A stretch of 64,000 nucleotides of DNA from the NCBI GenBank assembly GCA_025786725.1, contig JAHLTZ010000050.1:54115-118114 (forward strand). The letters run 5' to 3'. Below the pieces are notes generated by a model. That model searched no databases and had not been told where the DNA came from. It saw only the letters and a program-made list of their open reading frames with translations. The translations under genes were made by a program, and so were the position numbers. This DNA comes from Syncephalis fuscata (Eukaryota; Zoopagomycota; Zoopagomycetes; Zoopagales; Piptocephalidaceae). This document shows, in pieces, positions 6,481-54,690 of the stretch (its first letter is position 1; each line of letters begins with the position of its first letter).

Positions 6481-8144
6481 GTAAAATGATTTGATCATGT
6501 AAATATTACGCGCTCAATCCAATGTTTTGTTTTATTTTAATATACAATTATACGACTTTTATCAATGATCAATAAATGAAATTAATCTGTCTTTCAATTG
6601 TTGCAATAATGTATAATATTAGCTGCTTACATTGATAAATAATTAGATTAAGCCTTATACTAGTTGTTTTAGTTGATGATCGTGTAAATATAAGTATATA
6701 AAAAGTTACAATGTGCTTGTAAATATTTATCTGTACAAACAACCACAATTACAAGTTATAGTAACAATCATAAGTATTTAATTACTAAACTTGTCAATTC
6801 AATTTTATCTACAACTCTTTGTTTTCTGTGCGTTATCTCAATTTAACGTTGCTGCTGTTCTAGCTGCATCAGCAACAGCCAACTTTTTGATAAACGTAGT
6901 CCAGCTTAGCATAGGTACAATGATTTGTTATAGGTCAAACCAGTAATCCTTTGAGCTGCTAATTGTTTTTCTATTGGTTTCTGCTTTGGCTTGTTCTTCT
7001 ACATTCCATCTTGTTTAACTTGTCAAAAGTGTTTTCATAAATGTAAGCAGCACTTAGGCCTTGGATAATTACCGGTTGATATACGATCCATTGACATTAT
7101 GCACTCGAAATTGCTGACATTCAATTGGAACGTTCTATTGTGTCTAGTCCAGTGTCTGCATATTGCATCGCGTGTAGTTTAGCCGATGCAATTTAGTCTA
7201 CAGCTAAAAACTGATGGCGAAAATGACTTGTTGAAATATTCCATTGCTCAAATGTCGTGATGCATTATCCTACAAACAGTACTTATTGTATAGTTGCTTT
7301 TAGGTAATTTGGATTAGCCGCCATTTGAATGATGGTAGTTGCACATGTGGCATGATATACCTTGATGTGATGCATTTGTGAATTCAGAACAATTGCTATC
7401 CCATAACAATGGCATAGTGGAATGAAATACACCCATAAAACCAATCAACACACTTTATAATTTAAAGAATGACGATTAATTTATATATAGCAGTAAAAAC
7501 CTGTATAAAAATACCAGTTTGATACATTAAGCTTGTTTTTGCATCAGTATTGTGTGCTATTCTGTATGCAACAAATATTGAGGACTGGATTGGTAGAAAT
7601 GGCAGCAAAGACATCATTATCTTTTTACAAACCAAACAATATACTTGCTTTTACCAAATAGTTAGACCGTGTAATAAAAAAACAGGTTAATGTGTCTATT
7701 TTTACCATATGTACTGGGTTATGAACACCGTTACAGTACTCGTGCAAATGACTAACGGATTGAAGTAAAGACCGGCAGGTTATGTGCTGTTTAGTATGCA
7801 TGCAGATATTGAGGACTGAATCGGTAGAAATGGCGGCAAAAATATCACTATTGCTTTTACAAAGTTAAACAATACCTTGCTTTTACCAAATAGTTAAACC
7901 GTATAATAAAAAAGCAGTGATGTACATGTCTCTATCGCACATGTAATGCTCATTGGAATTGCCGTGTCATTTGTGTAAATGCCGAGCAGGTTGAAATTAA
8001 GTTTGAAAGCATAATATCACGCCATGAATCTATTGGTGCATGTGCACCTCAAACCATTATTTGGATTGTTTTATTGGTTCATATTACACATCAATGGTAT
8101 ATCTCGTATACTACAGTATACTGGCATCTCAGCATGATTATAAG
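6481..8144. other. intergenic upstream of the micro-exon gene
   Basis: AT-rich, no supported gene. It contains a diverged tandem duplication (listed separately). The last few hundred bases are the probable promoter of the gene starting at 8289. Confidence 0.5.
7540..7935 (+). repeat. diverged tandem duplication, about 240-bp period
   Basis: The block around 7560-7700 (AATATTGAGGACTGGAT, then a TTTTACCAAATAGTTAGACC-type segment) recurs around 7805-7930 with about 80-85 percent identity by eye. No coding potential is apparent in either copy. Confidence 0.7.
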
Positions 8145-8152
8145 TATAAATA
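8145..8152 (+). promoter_or_regulatory. TATA box of the micro-exon gene
   Basis: TATAAATA lies 137-144 bp before the ATG at 8289. Between them is a pyrimidine/AC-rich leader with three copies of an ACACTCTACTCT-like motif (about 8191, 8212 and 8240), typical of a strongly transcribed short 5' leader. The transcription start itself is not determinable from sequence. Confidence 0.5.
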
Positions 8153-8288
8153 GCCCACAGAATATACACATCCAACTGCGGTATCCTCATCACACTCTAC
8201 TCTCTGCTAAACACACTCTACTCTCCACTTTATACCAACCACACTCTACTATCTCTTTTTTTGTTTGTCTTAACAATTCAATATCACC

Positions 8289-10588
8289 ATGAAGCTTTCC
8301 ATTGCCGTCGTTTGCACCATTGTCGTGGCTCTTGTGGCCAGTACAGCCATCGTGGATGCTAAACCAGCCTTAGTTCGTCGTGGTATGTTGCAATAACAAT
8401 AAATATGCCATAGTATCTGCTTATTAATAGTATTGCTAACTAATAATGCTATTAGATCGTAAGTTGTACTGTATATTAGCTAATGACTCATTAATTATAT
8501 TCATGCACTATGTGTATCAACAACTTAATACTAATAGTTAGTAAGTTCTATTATATACCAATAAATTATACACTAATTATATGTCATGTACTGTATCAAT
8601 TGACAACTTAATATTAGATAGCTGTAAGTTATATTGTATATTAGTTGATTGCTCACTAATTGCATGCTATGGACTATGTGTATCAACAAATTAATACTAA
8701 TAGGCAGTAAGTGATATTGTATATTGATGACTTATAATTAAGCATATATCATGTATTGCGTACATCGATAACTTAATGTCATAGTGGGTAAGTTGTATTG
8801 TGTATTAAATGACTATAAACTAATTATATATTATGTGTTGTATGTATCAATGACTTGATATTAGACCAATGTAAGTTATATTGTATACTGATTGCACCTA
8901 GCTAATTATATATTATGCGTTGTGTGTATCAATAACTTAATAATAATAGGCAGTAAGTAGCATTGTATATTAACTGACTATGTACTAACCACGCGTTATG
9001 CATAATATATATTAACAACTTAATACTAATAGGTAGTAAGTGATATTGTATATTGCTGACTTATGAATTAATTATATCAATATACCGTGTGTATCAAAAA
9101 ATTAATAATATAGAATGTAAGGTATATTATATATTAACTGTTCATTCACTAATTACGTGTTATGTATTTTATACATTAACAATTTAATATTAATAGGTGG
9201 TAAGTTGTATTGTATATTAACTGACTATACATTAACCATGCTATTTACTGATTGTACCAACTATTTAATATTAATAGGCAGTAAGTAATATTGTATATTA
9301 GTTAACTATACATTAATTATACTATTTACTAATGTATTAATTATTTAATATTAATAGTTGGTAAGTTGTATTGTATATTAAATAATTATACATTAACTGC
9401 TATTTACTGATTATATTGATTATTTAATACCAATAGACAGTAAGCGATATTGTATATTAACTGACTATAAATTAACCATGCTATTTATTGATTTTATCTA
9501 TTATTTAATACTAATAGACAGTAAGTGATATCGTATATTAACTGACTATACATTAACCATGCTATTTATTAATTCTGCTTATTATCTAATATTAATAGTC
9601 TGTAAGTGGTATTGTATATTGATCGACTATACATTAACCATGCTATTAATTGATTGTACTTATTATTTAATATTAATAGGTGGTAAGCTGTATTGTATAT
9701 TATTTGACCATATATTAACTATGTTATTTACTAATTGTATCAATTACCTAATATTAATAGTCGGTAAGTTGTATTGTATACTAACTGACTATACATTAAC
9801 TATGCTATTTACTAATTGTACCTATTGTTTAATGTTAATAGTTCGTAAGTGATATTGTATATTAACTGACTATACAATAACCATGCTATTTATTAATTGT
9901 ACCAATTATATAATATTAATAGGTTGTAAGTAGTATTGTATATTAATTGACTATATATTAATTACATTCCATTTACTAATGCATCAACAAATTAACATTA
10001 ATAGGTCGTAAGTTGTGTTGCATAATAACTAAATATATATTAATTATATGCCATTTATTGTGCACATCAATAACTTAATATTAATAGAATGTAAGGTATA
10101 TTGTATATTAACTAGCTATTTACTAACCACATGCTATTTAATGTATCCATCAACAACTTAATATTAATAGACAGTAAGTTGAGTTGTATACCAATAGAAC
10201 ATGCGCTAATTATATACTGTGGACTGTATCCACCAACAACTTAATATTAATAGCATGTAAGTGGTATTGTATATTAATTGATTACTTACTAATTACATGT
10301 TATGCATCATGTGTATCAACAACCTAATACTAATAGGTCGTAAGTAGCATTTTATATTGGTTGATAACCCACTAATCACATGTTATGCATCATGTGTATC
10401 CATAACTTAATACTAATAGACCGTAAGTAGCATTTTATATTGATTAATTACTCACTAATTACATGTTATGCACCATGTGTATCAATAACTTAATATCAAT
10501 AGACGGTAAGTGATATTGTATATTGATGGCTTATACACTAATTATATAACACGTACTATTTTTATTTATAAATGCAGATAACCCATAA
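8289..10588 (+). CDS. secreted six-cysteine peptide encoded by 28 exons, 26 of them 3- or 6-nt micro-exons
   Basis: Exon 1 (8289-8382) encodes a signal peptide (begins MKLSIAVVCTIVVAL, ends VDA), a short propiece KPALVRR with a dibasic Kex2-type site, and one base of the next codon. Micro-exons start at 8456, 8538, 8618 (6 nt), 8704, 8785, 8865 (6 nt), 8950, 9033, 9114, 9197, 9278, 9358, 9437, 9518, 9599, 9680, 9761, 9842, 9923, 10005, 10088, 10171, 10254, 10337, 10420 and 10503. All are 3 nt unless noted. The last exon is 10578-10588, stop 10586-10588. Every intron is phase 1, starts with GTAAG (the first with GTATG) and ends in AG, usually AATATTAATAG or AATACTAATAG. The joined frame is open: 62 residues, with a mature part of 31 residues and cysteines spaced C-X3-C-X2-C-X5-C-X3-C-X3-C. 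The total of 189 nt is an exact multiple of three. No family is recognised and function is unknown. The exon model is my reading; transcript evidence is not available here. Confidence 0.85.
8459..10577 (+). repeat. tandem array of about 81-bp intron-plus-micro-exon units
   Basis: About 26 units, each consisting of GTAAGTNNTATTGTATATTA, a variable middle, a TTAATATTAATAG-type 3' end, and a 3-nt slot (6 nt twice). Intron lengths are 76-80 nt. Neighbouring units resemble each other most: units in 9200-9920 share a CTGACTATACATTAACCATG segment, and units in 10260-10500 share an ACTAATTACATGTTATGCA segment. This points to stepwise local duplication. The last intron differs (ends AATGCAG). The 3-nt slot is the most variable position next to fully conserved splice signals. 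Confidence 0.9.
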
Positions 10589-19320: not shown

Positions 19321-20905
19321 ACTAATGAAGAAGTAACAGCACATGATAGTTACTAGAATGGAGAATGTAAACAAGTAAAAATCGAATTACTAGTGGTTTC
19401 TATTCAACTACCGCATTACTGTTGGTACAATTTTGGACACCTTTCTTAAATATTTTGTTTAATAACCTAAAATGGCATCTAGCACATGTCATTATTCTTT
19501 TATAGAGCCATGTCATCTGAATTTATTTATTATTATTTTCGTCTCATATACATTGTCTTATTTTTCATTTACTTTTTGTCAACACTTTCCTATAATTAAA
19601 CCATACAATTATTTTTTGATACATCAGTTGCTTATAATATGATAGCAAGACAAGCACAACAACTGGTAATATTTACATTGTTGCTATTTTGTTCAACACA
19701 CCACTTTACCGTAGACAGTGCCAAAACATATGAAGATGATTTTTACACAAAACCTAATTATGACTGGCCCTATATTAGCTCTAGAATTACCGGTAAACTA
19801 GTTTATGTAACACCTTATTATGTACCCACCGGCGTTAAGCACTTCATGCCAATGGTATAAAGGAAAAGGTGTGAACTCGGAATTATTGACAGCGGATTAA
19901 TTCGAACACTGATGCATTTGAAGGAAATTACAATTATAATCATGGACTTGTGTCTATTAATTACAGTCAAGCTAAACATCATCTAAATGCAATAGACGTG
20001 GTGTAAGTCTAGCTGGAATTGCCGTTGCAAAAACCAATTATTTTACTGGAGTTGCACCCGAGGCAACACTTGGCACCTATCGCGTGTTTGGCTGCACGGC
20101 CCAACTTCAACCTCATTGGTGTTGCAAGCTATAACAGCAGCAATCAAGGACCAAATGAAAATTGTTGTATTGCCGGAGATTGCCATTGTAGATGAATATA
20201 GTACTAAACTAAAGAAACAATAGAAGATGCTGCAAAACATGGCGTGATTATGATTGTTGCAGCATCAGCCAATAATTTTATAAATCCAAATTACTTTTCA
20301 TATCAAGGCCTTCCTGTATTAAGTGTTGGTGGTTTTAAACAAAAGTATCGACTATCGCACTGGTTTGAGGAGAAAACAACTGCGTCGTATTGAGTTTAAT
20401 TCTCCGTGTTCAGACATGAGCTATGACTTTAACAAAGAAATGAATATTATTCTAGAAATATCAAGGGCAGATTAGAAGAACATCTTACTGGGCTTAAAAG
20501 AGGAGACATTGCACTTGTGTGGTATGATAAATCAACAACTCCTTATTTGTTAAAGTATGCTAAAATGATAAGGATGGCCGGGCTTATAATTGTAAACGGT
20601 CCTTCTAAAAAAAGACAAAAATGCGATATGCCTTTATTTGATATCAGTGAAAAAGATGCTTTGTTTATAAAAGAAGGCTATGCCAATAAGCTTGGATACA
20701 AATATAATTTTGCAGAAAAGTATGGCTACATTAAAGATGGCAGTGTTACTGTCGATACAGCTGACCGCAGAATGAACCATTCATACCGCCTTTCTATCCT
20801 GACATCTTGGCACCAAGTTACGAAATCTACACTACTACCACTCGTAAAAAATAAGCAAACCCATTTCAGCGATATATCAGCTGCTGTTGCATATGTTGCG
20901 GTGCA
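19321..20905 (+). repeat. inverted duplication arm B
   Basis: Reverse-complement partner of 1-1580, separated from it by about 17.7 kb. The match starts about 320 bp upstream of the subtilase start codon and runs to where copy 1 leaves the window. Confidence 0.85.
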
Positions 20906-21465
20906 GCTGCATTGATAGCTGAAATTGATAACAAGAGTTTGGTTGATGTTAACCATGCAGAACTATATTACAAAACAGCGCAGTTCCCGTCAAAGTCAGT
21001 AATGCAGATTCCTACGTTTCTCCATTATATCAAGGCTCCGGTATAATCAATCTTACCAAACTAATAGATACTAAAAGTGTTCATGTTGAACCATCGTTAA
21101 TTAATTTGGAGGACACGTATACCAACGCAGTGGATGTATTGATCAAACTTTCACCTCTATCTGACACATCAGCATCGTATAAACTTTCACATATTCCAGC
21201 CGCTGCAGTTTTGAAATCAAAACCTATTAGCAATACATCGTCAGGAAAACATGTGATTGCAACCGTTTCCCTTCCAGGATCTATTGATTTACGACTAAAT
21301 CAGATAAGCGAGATCAACATAAAGATTAGTGTGCCGAGGAATATACAAAATGGCGAAATATGGTCATATTCCGGGTATATTGTAATTGATCCTAATCCAG
21401 GAATTAATGGATCACCATCGAACCATGCTGTTTATGTTCCATATTATGGAACAGTTAGAGGTTAA
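19639..21465 (+). CDS. subtilase-like secreted protein, copy 2, with frame breaks
   Basis: Full-length counterpart of copy 1: signal peptide (MIARQAQQLVIFTLLLF), linker, subtilase core, PA-like insertion, Ser region, and a C-terminal beta-rich domain (21106-21465) ending YVPYYGTVRG, like the Fn3-type tail of Vpr/C5a-peptidase-type subtilases. The Asp motif is present. The His motif reads RRGVSLAGI, so the catalytic His is missing as in copy 1. The Ser is probably present in SDISAAVAYVAG, aligned to the usual GTSMAAPYVAG, with Pro to Ala. At least eight 1-2 nt losses break the frame (near 19859, 19875, 19895, 19980, 20098, 20210, 20382, 20901), mostly in short homopolymers. Either consensus errors or a decaying pseudogene. 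Confidence 0.75.
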
Positions 21466-37383: not shown

Positions 37384-39665
37384 ATGTCTAAAGTTGCCGA
37401 TCTTATTGCTCGCTTCAGTAAGAAGCCAGCTGGAGAGGAGCCTGCCGGACCGTCATCTCGCGAACCAATAGTCAGTGGTGGAATTGGGTCCATCAAAGCA
37501 CGACTTAGCTCTCAAAAGCCTGCCGACTCGACAGAAGAAGAGGCCGATGTAGATCGACCAGCACCAGTACGGGGCAGTGTACAAAAACTCTGGGAAGCCC
37601 GTAAAGAACAGCGAGAGAAAGAGGAGGCTGAAGAAGCGGCCAATGAACGATCTCAGACCAACACTGACGACAATGAACAAACGACAAGTGGAAGTAGTGA
37701 GAATGCTGCGTTTGAAGCGGGTCATGTAAGTTAATAGCTGACTCTAATAGGCAGAATAGATATTGATATAACAAGTAGGTTGACAAACTAGCCAATATCA
37801 TGGCCAATAGTGGAGCAGTACCTATTATTAAACCAATGGATTATGCGGCTAAACGAGCAGAAGTCAAAGCTAAGGAGGAAGAAGAAGAACGGTTAAGACA
37901 GGCAGCTGAAGAGGAAGAGCAGGCTAGAAAAGCAGCTGAAGAAGAACAAGCAAGACAGGCAGCTGAAGAAGAAGAAGGTTAAGAAAAGCAGCTGAAGAAG
38001 AACAAGCAAGACAAGCAGCTGAAGAGGAAGAGCAGGCTAGAAAAGCAGCTGAAGAGGAAGAACGGTTAAGAAAAGCAGCTGAAGTGGAAGAGCAGGCTAG
38101 AAAAGCAGCTGAAGAAGAACAAGCAAGACAGGCAGCTGAAGAAGAAAAGAACGATAAAAACAAAGAGATTGAAATAGATGAAATAAATAAAGAAGTAGAG
38201 AAAGATGAAGTGAAAGAAGTAGTAACAACAAAATCTACTGAACTTGAAACTACTAAAAAGAAAGAAGAACCAATAACTACTACTATTGTTGTAAAAGAAG
38301 AACAAGAAGAAAAGGAAAGCAATATTAATCCACAAGTGTCAACAACATTTAATCAACAAAAAGAAGTAAATGATCATATTGAAATTAATAGTAAACAAGA
38401 TGAATCAACAGACACTACAATTAATGAACAGATAGAAATCATTTCAGATAACAATGACTCAACTGAAAGTAAAGACAAATCTAATCCCCAACTTACTCGT
38501 AGTCAAACTGCCCCACTGAAGATGTAGACAACAAAGTACCTGATATACGTTCATTGGCACGTATGCTATCAGATCAAGTAAGTAGTTTATTAATAACAAC
38601 AAATACAATATATTAATATTTAATATAGGCTGTACATCGAGTTAAAGATAGACCTGCATCATATTCTCCAGCCAGTGACACAAATGATATGGTTGATGCC
38701 ACATCTCCTCCTCGTCCCTTCAGTATTGCTCTTCCTGGTCTAGCCAATCCAGTCCGTGTTCCTTCCAAACAAGATACTGATAATGAAGATGACACTAAAG
38801 ATGAACAGTCAGCCACTGATACATCAAATGGACCATTAAAACCTTTAACAGGTCGATTTAGTAAACCTGCCAATAGAGGCCGTCGTCTACCAACCCGTGT
38901 ACGTAAAGAATCAACTGAAAAGACAAATGACACAACAGAAAGTGAAGTGTCTAATAACACCTCTACTGAAGAACAAAAGACTGAAACACCCATTGTATCT
39001 ATTCAATCAATGGAATCATGTGACGATGAAGTAGAGGCAACATTAAATGATGATACAACTTATATGTTAACTGAAGAACCTGTACTAATTATTGAACAGG
39101 CTGAAACTGATGCCAATACTAATGATATACAGTTACATGTCAATGTAGCAGCCATTAAAGATAAGAAACAACAATCAGCATCAGTGCCATCATCGCCTAT
39201 AACAAAGCAGTCAAAGGTATCTCATGGTAGAAGTTCTTCAGTGACTAAAGGTCATGTAAAGACTAAATCAGGTTCATTAAAGAAATCGGATATACCATCT
39301 GGTGGATCTATTAAAAAAACATCCAGTCAATCATCGACTGGATCAAGTAAATCGGCCACCACTTCCAGTGTAAGACGCACAACAGCGATAGAGGCCTCGA
39401 GTCGACTCTACGCGCCTACAGCATCTTCAGCGGCTAAACAGCGTGTACCAGTTACCACCAAGTCACCAATGATGGCCGTCTTAGTCCGATGCCGAGTCGC
39501 AGTCCACCCAACCGTAACATGTCACGATCACCCTCCCGTATGAGTATGCGAAGTGATAGTCATGATGGCTATCATAGTGGCAATAGTAGTTCATCTGAAC
39601 CGATGCCCTCCACCTCACATAGTAGAACTGCTTCTGGTGATCAACATCGATCAGGGACACTATAA
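37384..39665 (+). CDS. coiled-coil, low-complexity protein of unknown function
   Basis: Exons: 37384-37725, 37779-38577, 38629-39665. N-terminus MSKVADLIARFSKKP. The second exon has a heptad-like Glu/Ala/Arg repeat (units of AAEEEQARQ, AAEEEERLRK; about 37860-38150), predicted as a long charged coiled coil. It continues into an acidic Thr/Ser/Lys-rich region. The third exon has basic Ser/Pro segments (RFSKPANRGRRLPTRVRK, SPPNRNMSRSPSRMSMRS) suggesting a cytoskeletal or phosphorylated scaffold protein; that is inference. Three single-base losses interrupt the frame: near 37977, near 38513 (C-run) and near 39463. In each case the neighbouring frame continues in obviously matching composition to a stop at 39663-39665. 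No known domain. Confidence 0.7.
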
Positions 39666-48200: not shown

Positions 48201-49944
48201 ATAATAATAATGACATATTGTAACAACATCATTCATTTAACAATAATAATAGTATTTTATTTAGACGTCATTTATATTGTGTTGCGTTAATATTTAATAA
48301 GTTTTTTATAATTTGGTAATCAAATGATTACATTTATTAAGACTTATTTCATTAAATATAATGCTAGGTGGTGAATAATATCAATTATTAAATACTCATT
48401 ATTGTAGCTTTATTATCCAGTATGCATATATCCACCATTTACTTGCATTATTCCCATTCTGTTTATGCTGTACACTTTTATTTTATTAAATGTTGTTGTA
48501 CATTGTTATACAGTATATTGGCCACACTCTATCGGTTGGCGTTGTCCATTCGACTCTAGCTTTATAGCTGAATTGGCCCTTCATTACGCTTTTTCTGCTA
48601 ATGACCATATTACACAGTCACAGTTGGGCATATTGATAAAGTTAACAGTAAATTAACGAATATATATACTGCAAATCCGATTGGTTCTGCGTACTCGCAT
48701 GACAATTCTGGCTATAATAAACCAATAAAATAAAATGTCTAAATATTTATTGTTTTTATTTAGAATTGTATACGCATATCATAGCAATATTGGTCAAATA
48801 TTGGTGAAAATCGTTAAATATAAATATAAATTTGTTTATTTATCGCTATGATTTGTTTATTATGCTAGTTTGTCGATTAGTGCATAGTATACTGGCTGCT
48901 GGCTGCCAATCTGGCTTATTCTAGTGCAGTCATTGCAGTCATTGCAGTGATTTCAGCTAATGACCAGTCAGTATGGTCCTTGCAGGTCCTTACTCGTATA
49001 TCAGCTAGCGTATTTTGTTTGTTTTACGCCGCGTATGCATCGATTGCATTGCCCGGGTTGTTTCTGGCTATTGAGCTATGTAGTGGTACGCTTTATTCGT
49101 TCTATTTCACTCATATTGGCCTCAATCTACACAGCACGCCACTACATCACTTCCGTTTTTTGTACCACCTTCCTAATATGGAGTATTGCCGTGACTCGGT
49201 TTAACATTCAACTCCAGAGCCCGTAGTAATACAGCCACCCATTGGGCCATTTCCGGCTGACCTTGCCATTACTGTGGATACGCATTGTTTTGCTTGATCA
49301 ACACCAAAGCCATTGCTAATTGACAATTGCCGGCTTGTCTAGCAGACGGTTACAATAATTCGATTTGTTAATAATTAGCCTGGTGCAAAAATAAACATGA
49401 TTTTGGATTGAGGAAAGATGGGCGATCATAGAAAACATAAAAAGCGGTGTCAAAGCTACAGTGTGTATAGTGGAATGAGTGGAATGAGCAAAGTATATTG
49501 CCGCATATAAACAATAAAATGTGTCTAGTGTATCGTAGAATGATACATAGTAGTGTGGGACAGAATGGGAATGATATAGGTAAATGGTGGATATATGCAT
49601 ACTGGATAATAAAGCTACAATAATGAGCATTTGATAATTGATGTCACTCACCGCCCATCATCATGTTCAATAGATTGGGCGTTATTAAAAATAGTCATTT
49701 AACCACCAAATCACAATAAATGTAATAATGCGACGATTAAATAAAACTCACCACTTGTCCCCATGTTTAATAGAACGAAAATGTAGTTCAGCTACGCGAA
49801 TGTTACAAAAAAAAGTCATTTGACCCCCAAATCACACTAAGCAATAAACGATTTTAGTTAAAAAAAGCTATAATGTGCTATATAATGGTATATAGTGATA
49901 TATAATGGTATATAGTGGTATATAGTGGTATATAGTGGTATATA

Positions 49945-50335
49945 GTGATATATACTTTCTTATACCGCCTTACACCGTCTTACACCGGCTTATACCGTCT
50001 TATGGAGCGGTACGGAGCGGTATGGAGCGGTATGGAGCGGTACGCAGCGGTACGCCGTCTTATACCGTCTTATACCGTCTTACACCGTCTTACCCGTCTT
50101 AACCGTCTTACGCCGTCTTACGCCTCTTAACCGTCTTATGGAGCGGTACGCCGCGGTACGGAGCGGTACGCCGTCTTATACCGTCTTACACCGCTTACCC
50201 GTCTTAACCGCTTACCCTTACACCGTCTTACGCCGTCTTATACCTTCTTACACCGTCTTATGGAGCGGTACGCCGCGGTACGGAGCGGTACGCCGTCTTA
50301 TACCGTCTTACCCGTCTTACACCGTCATATAATGG
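49945..50335. repeat. 10-bp minisatellite, block 1
   Basis: Arrays of about 10-bp units of two alternating kinds, TACACCGTCT / TATACCGTCT and GGAGCGGTAC / GGAGCGGTAT. G+C is far above the AT-rich surroundings. Flanked on both sides by TATAATGGTATATA-type repeats. Confidence 0.9.
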
Positions 50336-52164
50336 TATATAACAATATTATATTTTTATAATTGTTTATTTAATCATTACATTATTACATGTAGTGTGAT
50401 TTGGGGGTCAAATGACTAAATTTAATAACATTCGCGCAATTGCACTGCACATTCACTCTATTGAACATGGGGACAAGTGGTGAGTTTTATTTAATCGTCA
50501 CATCATCACACTTATTGCTTTTTTGGGGGACAAATGACTAATATTTAATAACACCCAATCTATTGAACATGATGATGGGTGGTGAGTGACATCAGTCATC
50601 AAATACTCGTCATCATAGATTCGTTATCCAGTATGCATATATCCACCATTTACCTATATCATTCCCATTCTGTCCCACACTACTATGTATCATTCTACGA
50701 TACACTAGACACATTTTATTGTTTATACGCGGCAATATACTTTGCTCTTCCACTCATTCCACTATACACACTGTAGCTTTGACACCGCTTTTTATGTTTT
50801 CTATGATCGCCCATCTTTCCTCTATCCAAAATCATGTTTATTTTTGCACCAGGCTAATTATTAACAAATCGAATTATTGTAACCGTCTGCTAGACAAGCC
50901 GGCAATTGTCAATTAGCAATGGCTTTGGTGTTGATCAAGCAAAACAATGCGTATCCACAGTAATGGCAAGGTCAGCCGGAAATGGCCCAATGGGTGGCTG
51001 TATTACTACGGGCTCTGGAGTTGAATGTTAAACCGAGTCACGGCAATACTCCATATTAGGAAGGTGGTACAAAAAACGGAAGTGATGTAGTGGCGTGCTG
51101 TGTAGATTGAGGCCAATATGAGTGAAATAGAACGAATAAAGCGTACCACTACATAGCTCAATAGCCAGAAACAACCCGGGCGATGCAATCGATGCATACG
51201 CGACGTAAAACAAACAAAATACGCCAGCTGATATACGAGTAAGGACCTGCAAGGACCATACTGACTGGTCATTAGCTGAAATCACTGCAATGACTGCAAT
51301 GACTGCACTAGAATAAGCCAGATTGGCAGCCAGCAGCCAGTATACTATACACCAATCGACAAACTAGCATAATAAACAAATTATAGCGATAAATAAACAA
51401 ATTTATATTTATATTTAACGATTTTCACCAATATTTGACCAATATTGCTATGATATGCATATACAATTCTAAATAAAAACAATAAATATTTAGACATTTT
51501 ATTTTATTGGTTATTATAGCCAGAATTGTCATGCGAGTACGCAGAACCAATCGGATTTGCAGTATATATATTCGTTAATTTACTGTTAACTTTATCAATA
51601 TGCCAACTGTGACTGTGTAATATGGTCATTAGCAGAAAAAGCGTAATGAAGGGCCAATTCAACTATAAAGCTAGAGTCGAATGGACAACGCCAACCGATA
51701 GAGTGTGGCCAATATACTGTATAACAATGTACAACAACATTTAATAAAATAAAAGTGTACAGCATAAACAGAATGGAAATAATGCAAGTAAATGGTGGAT
51801 ATATGCATACTGGATAATAAAGCTACAATAATGAGCATTTGATGACTGATGTCACTCACCGCCCATCATCATGTTCAATAGATCGGGCGTTATTAAAAAT
51901 AGTCATTTAACCACCAAATCACAATAAATGTAATAATGCGACGATTAAATCAAACTCACCACTTGTCCCCATGTTCAATAGAACGAAAATGTAGTTCAAC
52001 TACGCGAATGTTACAAAAAAAAGTCATTTGACCCCAAATCACACTAAGCAATAAACGATTTTAGTTAAAAAAAGCTATAATGTGATATATAATGGTATAT
52101 AATGGTATATAGTGTATATAATGGTATATATGGTATATAGTGGTATATAGTGGTGTATAGTGGT

Positions 52165-52575
52165 GTATAGTGATATATACTTTCTTATACCGCCTTACAC
52201 CGCCTTACACCGGCTTATACCGTCTTATGGAGCGGTACGGAGCGGTATGGAGCGGTATGGAGCGGTACGCAGCGGTACGCCGTCTTATACCGTCTTATAC
52301 CGTCTTACACCGCTTACGCCGTCTTATACCGTCTTACGCCGTCTTACGCCTTCTTATACCGTCTTATGGAGCGGTACGCCGCGGTACGGAGCGGTACGCC
52401 GTCTTATACCGCCTTACACCGTCTTACACCGTCTTATACCGCCTTACACCGCCTTACGCCGTCTTACGCCGTCTTATACCTTCTTACACCGTCTTATGGA
52501 GCGGTACGCCGCGGTACGGAGCGGTACGCAGCGGTACGCCGTCTTATACCGTCTTACGCCGTCTTACACCGTCAT
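52165..52575. repeat. 10-bp minisatellite, block 2
   Basis: Same two unit types as block 1, slightly longer, with a different order of units, showing gain and loss of units between blocks. Confidence 0.9.
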
Positions 52576-54399
52576 ATAATGGTATATAACAATATATATA
52601 TTTTTATAATTGTTTATTTAATCATTACATTATTACATGTAGTGTGATTTGGGGGTCAAATGACTAAATTTAATAACATTCGCGCAATTGCACTGCACAT
52701 TCACTCTATTGAACATGGGGACAAGTGGTGAGTTTTATTTAATCGTCACATCATCACACTTATTGCTTTTTGGGGACAAATGACTAATATTTAATAACGC
52801 CCAATCTATTGAACATGATGATGGGTGGTGAGTGACATCAGTCATCAAATACTCGTCATCATAGATTCGTTATCCAGTATGCATATATCCACCATTTACC
52901 TATATCATTCCCATTCTGTCCCACACTACTATGTATCATTCTACGATACACTAGACACATTTTATTGTTTATACGCGGCAATATACTTTGCTCCTTCCAC
53001 TCATTCCACTATACACACTGTAGCTTTGACACCGCTTTTTATGTTTTCTATAATCGCCCATCTTTCCTCTATCCAAAATCGTGTTTATTTTTGCACCAGG
53101 CTAATTATTAACAAATCGAATTATTGTAACCGTCTGCTAGACAAGCCGGCAATTGTCAATTAGCAATGGCTTTGGTGTTGATCAAGCAAAACAATGCGTA
53201 TCCACAGTAATGGCAAGGTCAGCCGGAAATGGCCCAATGGGTGGCTGTATTACTACGGGCTCTGGAGTTGAATGTTAAACCGAGTCACGGCAATACTCCA
53301 TATTAGGAAGGTGGTACAAAAAACGGAAGTGATGTAGTGGCGTGCTGTGTAGATTGAGGCCAATATGAGTGAAATAGAACGAATAAAGCGTACCACTACA
53401 TAGCTCAATAGCCAGAAACAACCCGGGCAATGCAATCGATGCATACGCGACGTAAAACAAACAAAATACGCCAGCTGATATACGAGTAAGGACCTGCAAG
53501 GACCATACTGATGGTCATTAGCTGAAATCACTGCAATGACTGCAATGACTGCACTAGAATAAGCCAGATTGGCAGCCAGCAGCCAGTATACTATACACCA
53601 ATCGACAAACTAGCATAATAAACAAATTATAGCGATAAATAAACAAATTTATATTTATATTTAACGATTTTCACCAATATTTGACCAATATTGCTATGAT
53701 ATGCGTATACAATTCTAAATAAAAACAATAAATATTTAGACATTTTATTTTATTGGTTTATTATAGCCAGAATTGTCATGCGAGTACGCAGAACCAATCG
53801 GATTTGCAGTATATATATTCGTTAATTTACTGTTAACTTTATCAATATGCCCAACTGTGACTGTGTAATATGGTCATTAGCAGAAAAAGCGTAATGAAGG
53901 GCCAATTCAACTATAAAGCTAGAGTCGAATGGACAACGCCAACCGATAGAGTGTGGCCAATATACTGTATAACAATGTACAACAACATTTAATAAAATAA
54001 AAGTGTACAGCATAAACAGAATGGAAATAATGCAAGTAAATGGTGGATATATGCATACTGGATAATAAAGCTACAATAATGAGCATTTGATGATTGATGT
54101 CACTCACCGCCCATCATCATGTTCAATAGATTGGGCGTTATTAAAAATAGTCATTTAACCACCAAATCACAATAAATGTAATAATGCGACGATTAAATCA
54201 AACTCACCACTTGTCCCCATGTTCAATAGAACGAAAATGTAGTTCAACTACGCGAATGTTACAAAAAAAAGTCATTTGACCCCAAATCACACTAAGCAAT
54301 AAACGATTTTAGTTAAAAAAAGCTATAATGTGATATATAATGGTATATAATGGTATATAGTGGTATATAGTGGTATATAGTGGTATATAGTGATATATT

Positions 54400-54690
54400 A
54401 TACTTACCGTTAAGCTTATACCGTCTTATGGAGCGGTAGGAGCGGTATGGAGCGGTAGGGCGGTACGCAGGTACCGTCTTATACCGTCTTATACCGTCTT
54501 ACACCGCTACCGTCTTATACCGTCTTACGCCGTCTTACTTTACCGTCTTATGGAGCGGTACGCCGCGGTACGCCGTCTTACCCCTACCCGCCCCCCCCCC
54601 CCCTTACACCGTCTTATGGAGCGGTACGCCGCGGTACGGCGTCCGTCTATACCGTCTACCCGTCTTACACCGTCATATAATGGTATATAA
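54400..54690. repeat. 10-bp minisatellite, block 3, poorly resolved
   Basis: Same unit types but with truncated units and a 13-base C run (54591-54603) not seen in the other blocks. This looks like a failed consensus across a repetitive GC-rich tract rather than real sequence. Confidence 0.75.

Follow-up and report, generated by a model that had tools for sequence, protein, structure and literature searches.

The stretch of DNA from Syncephalis fuscata (Zoopagomycota, Piptocephalidaceae) analysed here, 64,000 nt of contig JAHLTZ010000050.1 and called the window below, holds a gene whose signal-peptide exon is followed by a long run of micro-exons, nearly all of them 3 nt in length. The start of the signal exon is present as a single copy within the window. 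The parts of the gene are:

8145..8152, + strand: TATAAATA, which resembles a TATA box, in a 5' region common to the family described below
8289..8382, + strand: exon 1, 94 nt, with start codon, signal peptide, the ending ...LVRR and one base over (phase 1)
8383..8455, + strand: intron 1, 73 nt, GTATGT...TAG, less alike than the rest (61-71% identity to the repeated introns)
8456..10505, + strand: array of 26 micro-exons (24 of 3 nt, two of 6 nt) with 25 tandemly similar introns of 76-80 nt
8618..8623, + strand: 6-nt micro-exon ATAGCT, directly before the first Cys
8865..8870, + strand: 6-nt micro-exon ACCAAT, before the second Cys
10506..10577, + strand: last intron, 72 nt, ending TTTATTTATAAATGCAG
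10578..10588, + strand: coding part of the last exon, ATAACCCATAA, ending with the stop codon

The array, first proposed in a sequence-only reading, is in the window as described there. Each of the 26 slots between 8456 and 10505 is flanked by AG upstream and GTAAG downstream; 24 are 3 nt and two 6 nt long, and canonical GT-AG splice sites are present at every unit. The intron length of 76-80 nt given in that reading holds for the 25 inner introns; the first is 73 nt and the last 72 nt. The window has 27 occurrences of AGNNNGTAAG where 6.7 would be expected (the maximum in 100 shuffles was 13), and 24 of these 27 are slots of the gene. The 3'UTR that follows ATAACCCATAA is shared with the intronless paralogs discussed below. 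An Rfam scan and a tRNA scan of the window found nothing. RNA secondary structure as a guide to splicing was considered and rejected: the region 8384-9200 folds less well than its shuffles (z = +2.16, 20 shuffles).

Joining the predicted exons gives a 189-nt frame that reads MKLSIAVVCTIVVALVASTAIVDAKPALVRR, then DLNSCMDQCSKCGIDNICVVRCQYTCHHDNP, then a stop. The predicted product has a signal peptide, an RR pair and then 31 residues that include six Cys, with the stop codon 11 nt into the last exon; the unbroken frame, the Cys count and the early stop claimed before could all be reproduced from the sequence. For this gene alone the open frame is unremarkable, as 59% of 2000 shuffles of slot order stay open, while six Cys are reached by 0.05% of 2000 slot shuffles. 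The protein has no Pfam match at curated cut-offs, and the mature peptide none in the PDB up to E=10. No contiguous copy of the spliced product was found in the genome, a kind of search whose empty answer is uninformative.

The window has other features of note. Two related open reading frames (103-1290, - strand; 20433-21465, + strand) are presumably subtilisin-like, a name given by eye. Three clusters of 10-bp minisatellites of similar make-up (49875-50331, 52076-52573 and 54330-54551), with units such as TACACCGTCT and GGAGCGGTA, start about 2.2 kb apart. At 37878-38146 a unit of about 57 nt is repeated in tandem (period 30 was called as well), in an open frame with EEEEQARKAAEE-like repeats.

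A genome-wide family of arrays

Is this gene a one-off? It is not; it is one of a large family. The pattern TAATAGNNNGTAAGT (exact TAATAG-NNN-GTAAGT) has 2,716 sites (1235 + 1481) in the 28.95 Mb of the Syncephalis fuscata genome, and the reversed control pattern has 5 (1 + 4). The first 30 nt of the signal exon have 195 genome sites within 3 mismatches (control, 0). With 2 mismatches allowed, the last-acceptor pattern fits 90 sites (control, 1), a number that may include chance matches. A query made of the 5' region and exon 1 (8120-8400) returned 283 candidates, of which the 40 scored, itself included, were 88-100% identical. Dividing the 2,716 sites by about 17 per locus (from 680 sites in 42 loci, some of them incomplete) puts the family at roughly 160 arrays.

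Relatives were found in this fungus only. A profile of 20 members searched against 5.8 billion proteins gave 11 matches at E<=1, all from Syncephalis fuscata, in a search that finds only relatives sharing 5-residue words; a search with one intronless member gave 3 proteins, again all from this species. The slot pattern had one match in viral contigs. The signal region is more widely shared than the arrays, because signal peptides of the family also precede quite different mature parts, as in the deposited proteins P0003 (G000:C68:511268), P0002 and P0037.

Array anatomy was analysed by dynamic programming with a parser that demands AG and GT or GC and favours 3-nt exons. In 30 loci it delimited 797 internal exons (754 of 3 nt, 36 of 6 nt, six of 2 nt and one of 8 nt) with, as demanded, 777 GT and 20 GC donors and 797 AG acceptors (779 TAG, 17 CAG, 1 AAG). 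Adding 12 more loci brought the number of array loci to 42 and of internal exons to 1042, of which 981 are 3 nt, 51 are 6 nt and 10 have other lengths, so that the coding region consists mostly of very short exons whose lengths are multiples of three (981 + 51 of 1042); introns are 55-90 nt in 1027 of the 1042 cases. A count free of any length prior addresses the parser's preference for 3-nt exons, not its demand for AG and GT or GC. The 42 loci contain 822 TAATAG sites. GTAAGT follows within 46 nt at 700 of them, and the spacing is exactly 3 nt at 680 of the 700 (reverse strand, 1 of 4).

A recurring insert, roughly 0.4 kb long, sits some 20 nt past the donor in array introns. Both of its ends were seen in seven loci (L033, L034, L037, L038, L044, L045, L059); L035, L039 and L099 also have long introns, and the window gene is without it. 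Direct repeats such as GTGATATTGTATATTA flank the insert in L033 and L044. It looks like a SINE targeting the repeated intron, since its reverse complement starts with what we take, by eye, to be tRNA-like A and B boxes. ARAGORN found no tRNA in the insert at default settings and, when relaxed, one doubtful tRNA-Leu on the other strand.

Reading frames were followed through the 33 array loci that reach the last exon (in the other 9 of the 42 it was not found or fetched). Twenty of the 33 are open through every micro-exon and have a stop within 17 nt of the last exon. Among these open loci, L033, L037, L044 and L045 each have one long, insert-bearing intron. The other 13 are not clean: a slot length indivisible by three occurs in eight, an internal stop in four and a first donor other than GT in one. 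The stop lies within the last two codons of the array in L046, L059 and L097 and early in L102, where two introns of odd length are perhaps parser misses. These 13 loci may be pseudogenes, assembly errors or parser errors.

Twelve complete arrays lack long introns. Read in the phase set by exon 1 they contain 2 stops, compared with 18.5 in shuffled slots, and 62 Cys, compared with 30.2; of the 2 stops, one comes from a placeholder border in L055 and is an artefact. The other two phases give 5 stops with 2 Cys and 23 stops with 19 Cys. Cys-rich open frames thus occur in these arrays only in the phase that had been deduced from the one base left over by exon 1.

Most peptides of the array family seem to be small and rich in Cys and are predicted to be secreted. 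The 20 open loci encode 2 to 8 Cys per peptide, with near-copies among them (L042 and C1m; L044 and L050), and sizes range from short peptides such as YHELCDPRNPCKP (L096) up to 46 residues with 8 Cys (L056). Short two-Cys peptides, some of them Pro- or Trp-rich, are encoded by L046, L059, L096 and L098, and DPCDPFHPCTS by both L046 and L059; such arrays are perhaps a separate sub-type of the family.

Intronless paralogs and deposited proteins

Some paralogs have no array. L040 shares its 5' region, signal exon and 3'UTR with the arrays, but its frame is contiguous, with GGKSPQCTSCMATKCKKGMNASICNDICKKECSA after the RR pair. As a query it returned 364 candidates; among the 40 scored, 13 match over the whole length (72-100% identity) and 27 in the 3' part only. 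All 13 of these intronless paralogs, several of which are near-copies, are open and encode CxxC/CxxxC peptides in one exon. For one of two that were queried, Pfam gave TIL at E=0.018, below the cut-off.

Do the slots spell peptides of the same kind? Ten arrays (the 12 complete ones minus L046 and L055) were compared with seven representative intronless paralogs, and in 10/10 the score was equalled by 0-3 of 1000 slot shuffles, a result that in part re-measures the Cys excess already counted. The window gene is closest to DYDSCMFECRMGCSYPDYGMICKTVCDRECRRANP of C289a (0/1000 shuffles equal its score). We hold this match to be the strongest evidence that the slots, as predicted, are coding sequence.

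A tree of the 5' region was made from 41 array and 13 intronless rows, which came from similarity searches with the window gene or L040 or from matches to the two patterns (signal exon, last acceptor). It has 5 changes between array and intronless, at least 3 of them forced by well-supported branches. Many arrays have a 6-nt exon at a place like that of ATAGCT in the window gene, before the first Cys, which suggests that the arrays have one origin.

Deposited gene models were also fitted to the genome. For BDF19DRAFT_453770 (P0034), on the contig of L060, there is one spliced solution with GT/GC-AG introns of 45-119 nt: exon 1, an intron of 74 nt, CCA, an intron of 78 nt, AAG, an intron of 75 nt, ATC and read-through to a stop. 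The public annotation of this protein would therefore imply two 3-nt exons at the predicted borders, after which the model reads into an intron. Of the other two models tried (three in all), P0001 was fitted without a micro-exon and P0035 had no solution.

Divergence and probable recombination among arrays

Slots diverge faster than their surroundings. In 16 locus pairs the differences amount to 0-10% in exon 1, 0-21% in introns and 0-59% in slots, and in 13 of the 16 the slots are 2.1-4.4 times more divergent than the introns. The three pairs without a slot excess are L044/L050, L046/L059 and L037/L038, the last two loci being almost identical where both sequences are present. Over 297 homologous 3-nt slots from 11 pairs the three slot columns differ in 41, 34 and 48% of cases, and the flanking columns (-30 to +32) in 0-33%; the middle slot column (34%) is barely above the highest flanking one, the seventh intron base (33%). 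AG and the G of GT show no change because the parser requires these letters, and their constancy was not used as evidence.

Pooled over 13 pairs that share loci, changes affect 72 of 179 synonymous slot sites (0.40) and 342 of 826 nonsynonymous ones (0.41). As the two rates are equal, the fast divergence of slots is no proof of selection on the protein, and we do not claim positive selection from dN/dS. The equal rates, together with the keeping of Cys codons in 46 of 75 aligned cases in the same 13 pairs, are the grounds on which slots seem to be swapped whole rather than fine-tuned.

Several paralogs are mosaics. L044 and L052 have slots 4-12 in common, with flanking introns at most 3% different, and beyond this block both slots and introns diverge; L056 and L057 share shorter blocks of the same type. 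In 5 of 11 pairs the introns beside changed slots are more diverged than those beside unchanged ones (p < 0.05, uncorrected); the contrast is not significant in L042/C1m, L044/L050, WIN/L043, L047/L048, L053/L047 and L050/L056 (WIN being the window gene).

A neighbouring array, L032 (G000:C246:36830), lies on the same contig about 25 kb upstream of the window gene, outside the window. The two are identical over 249 nt of the 5' region and the 94 nt of exon 1. In this pair, the one compared in such detail, the arrays are colinear at the ends, with 85-100% intron identity, but the order of the best-matching introns is disturbed in the middle. Unit number is 26 in the window gene and 30 in L032, in which one 2-nt slot breaks the frame. 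Within the window array, adjacent introns are 79% alike on average and those at a spacing of 9-11 are 73-74% alike. This layout and intron likeness fit unequal recombination between introns, and the mosaic structure of some paralogs suggests that new peptides arise codon by codon when introns recombine.

The gene model, the alternatives to it, and known micro-exon systems

Taken together, the family, the intronless paralogs, the variability of slots and the deposited protein support the gene model with its 189-nt product that was proposed at the outset. We are highly confident, as far as genomic sequence can tell, that the locus codes for a small, secreted, Cys-rich peptide and belongs to a hypervariable gene family whose exons would be joined codon by codon. 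The spliceosome would remove 27 short GT-AG introns and join exon 1, the 26 micro-exons and the last exon into 189 nt. Since 3 nt are hardly enough for exon definition, splicing would proceed intron by intron, probably stepwise, each step adding three bases to the upstream exon. Cleavage would take place behind the signal peptide, and probably also behind the RR pair, leaving the 31-residue peptide with six Cys. Because the micro-exons are phase 1-1 and multiples of three, units could be gained, lost or exchanged by recombination between similar introns with the frame kept, which is probably how the peptides diversify. The intronless copies may have been made by reverse transcription; the SINE-like element in several arrays suggests that reverse transcription was active in this genome in the past.

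A broader reading, to which we give a little less than an even chance, is that the arrays are a codon-by-codon generator of diversity at well over 100 loci. Each cassette, set between near-identical introns, would carry a residue, recombination would insert, delete, duplicate or swap residues in frame, skipping could add combinatorial variants, and spliced copies would become intronless genes through reverse transcription. Syncephalis fuscata parasitises other fungi, and it is our guess that the peptides have a role in mycoparasitism, against the fungal hosts.

Are all the micro-exons normally included? If they were mainly optional, transcripts would skip many of them and one gene would yield many in-frame peptides. 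The splice signals are much alike at every unit of the array loci, and the 20 clean loci have only phase 1-1 micro-exons in multiples of three (by the definition of that class), so that any subset would stay in frame. The product of full inclusion, however, resembles the intronless paralogs in Cys framework and length, which suggests that selection sees full inclusion, and we consider predominant skipping unlikely. Far less probable is that many arrays are decaying pseudogenes, open by recent descent, with the intronless genes as the functional members. A defect of some kind in 13 of the 33 arrays with a last exon and the SINE-like insert in several arrays would agree with decay, but 20 of the 33 are open, stops in the 12 complete arrays number 2 rather than the 18.5 of shuffled slots, and the inserts examined sit inside introns. 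The least probable alternative, a non-coding intronic minisatellite whose mRNA joins exon 1 to the last or another exon, would account for the tandem repeats called by TRF over the introns of the window gene (periods near 81 nt) and for the fact that no deposited family protein, among the 13 examined, covers an entire array, but we reject it on the evidence of slots that are open and Cys-rich only in exon 1's phase, match the intronless paralogs and are 3 nt in 680 of 700 prior-free cases.

If the preferred model of full, codon-by-codon joining holds, the gene lies near the lower limit of exon size, with 26 exons for 28 codons' worth of sequence. It would offer a natural test system for consecutive 3-nt exons and stepwise splicing, and a test of the long-standing proposal that introns, through recombination, make it easier for new proteins to arise. 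Array genes seem to be missed by ordinary gene finding, since the sole deposited model fitted with micro-exons stops after two, and similar families may therefore be overlooked elsewhere.

The sequence-only reading knew of no gene spliced about one residue per exon, and none came to light: among the matches in open-access PMC papers, a source that leaves subscription papers mostly uncovered, no title or opening of an abstract describes consecutive one-codon exons or this S. fuscata family. Isolated tiny exons are on record as a 1-nt exon in Arabidopsis (PMC4674806), a 1-nt exon in Fusarium CYP621A (PMC12940212), plant microexons of 15 nt or less (PMC8831610) and a microexon of Trichoderma Xlr2 (PMC11121469). 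They indicate that very small exons can be spliced, in fungi included; they are apparently single and in otherwise ordinary genes, whereas those of the arrays are consecutive.

Recursive (ratchet) splicing offers another parallel. Ratchet points keep no bases, whereas three would be kept per step here, in a stepwise order that we infer. The likeness, in what is accessible of one account, lies in an acceptor directly before a donor and in stepwise removal (PMC8605326).

The nearest designs are found in two animal gene families. Aphid bicycle proteins have paired CYC motifs; they differ from the peptides described here, which belong to a fungus and not an aphid, and proteins of the array family were found only in Syncephalis fuscata. 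The bicycle genes form a large family too; they encode divergent putative effectors, have many small exons and can be recognised, like the arrays, by gene structure; many microexons are described, but one-codon exons or tandem intron copies are not reported in the available text (PMC9168663). The micro-exon genes (MEG) of Schistosoma, 35 in number, have exons of 6-81 bp (3-81 in the abstract), mostly 15 bp, and introns of 0.1-5 kb; on the available part of that paper they resemble the arrays in encoding secreted variable proteins from mostly very short exons, mostly multiples of three (PMC10526429). Compared with MEG as described there, nearly all internal exons here are 3 nt rather than mostly 15 bp, the introns are near-copies of 72-80 nt in tandem rather than 0.1-5 kb, the family is larger and the genome that hosts it is fungal; we do not claim sequence homology. 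We rate the arrays as an extreme new form of micro-exon genes, with the Schistosoma MEG and the aphid bicycle genes as their nearest counterparts in design.
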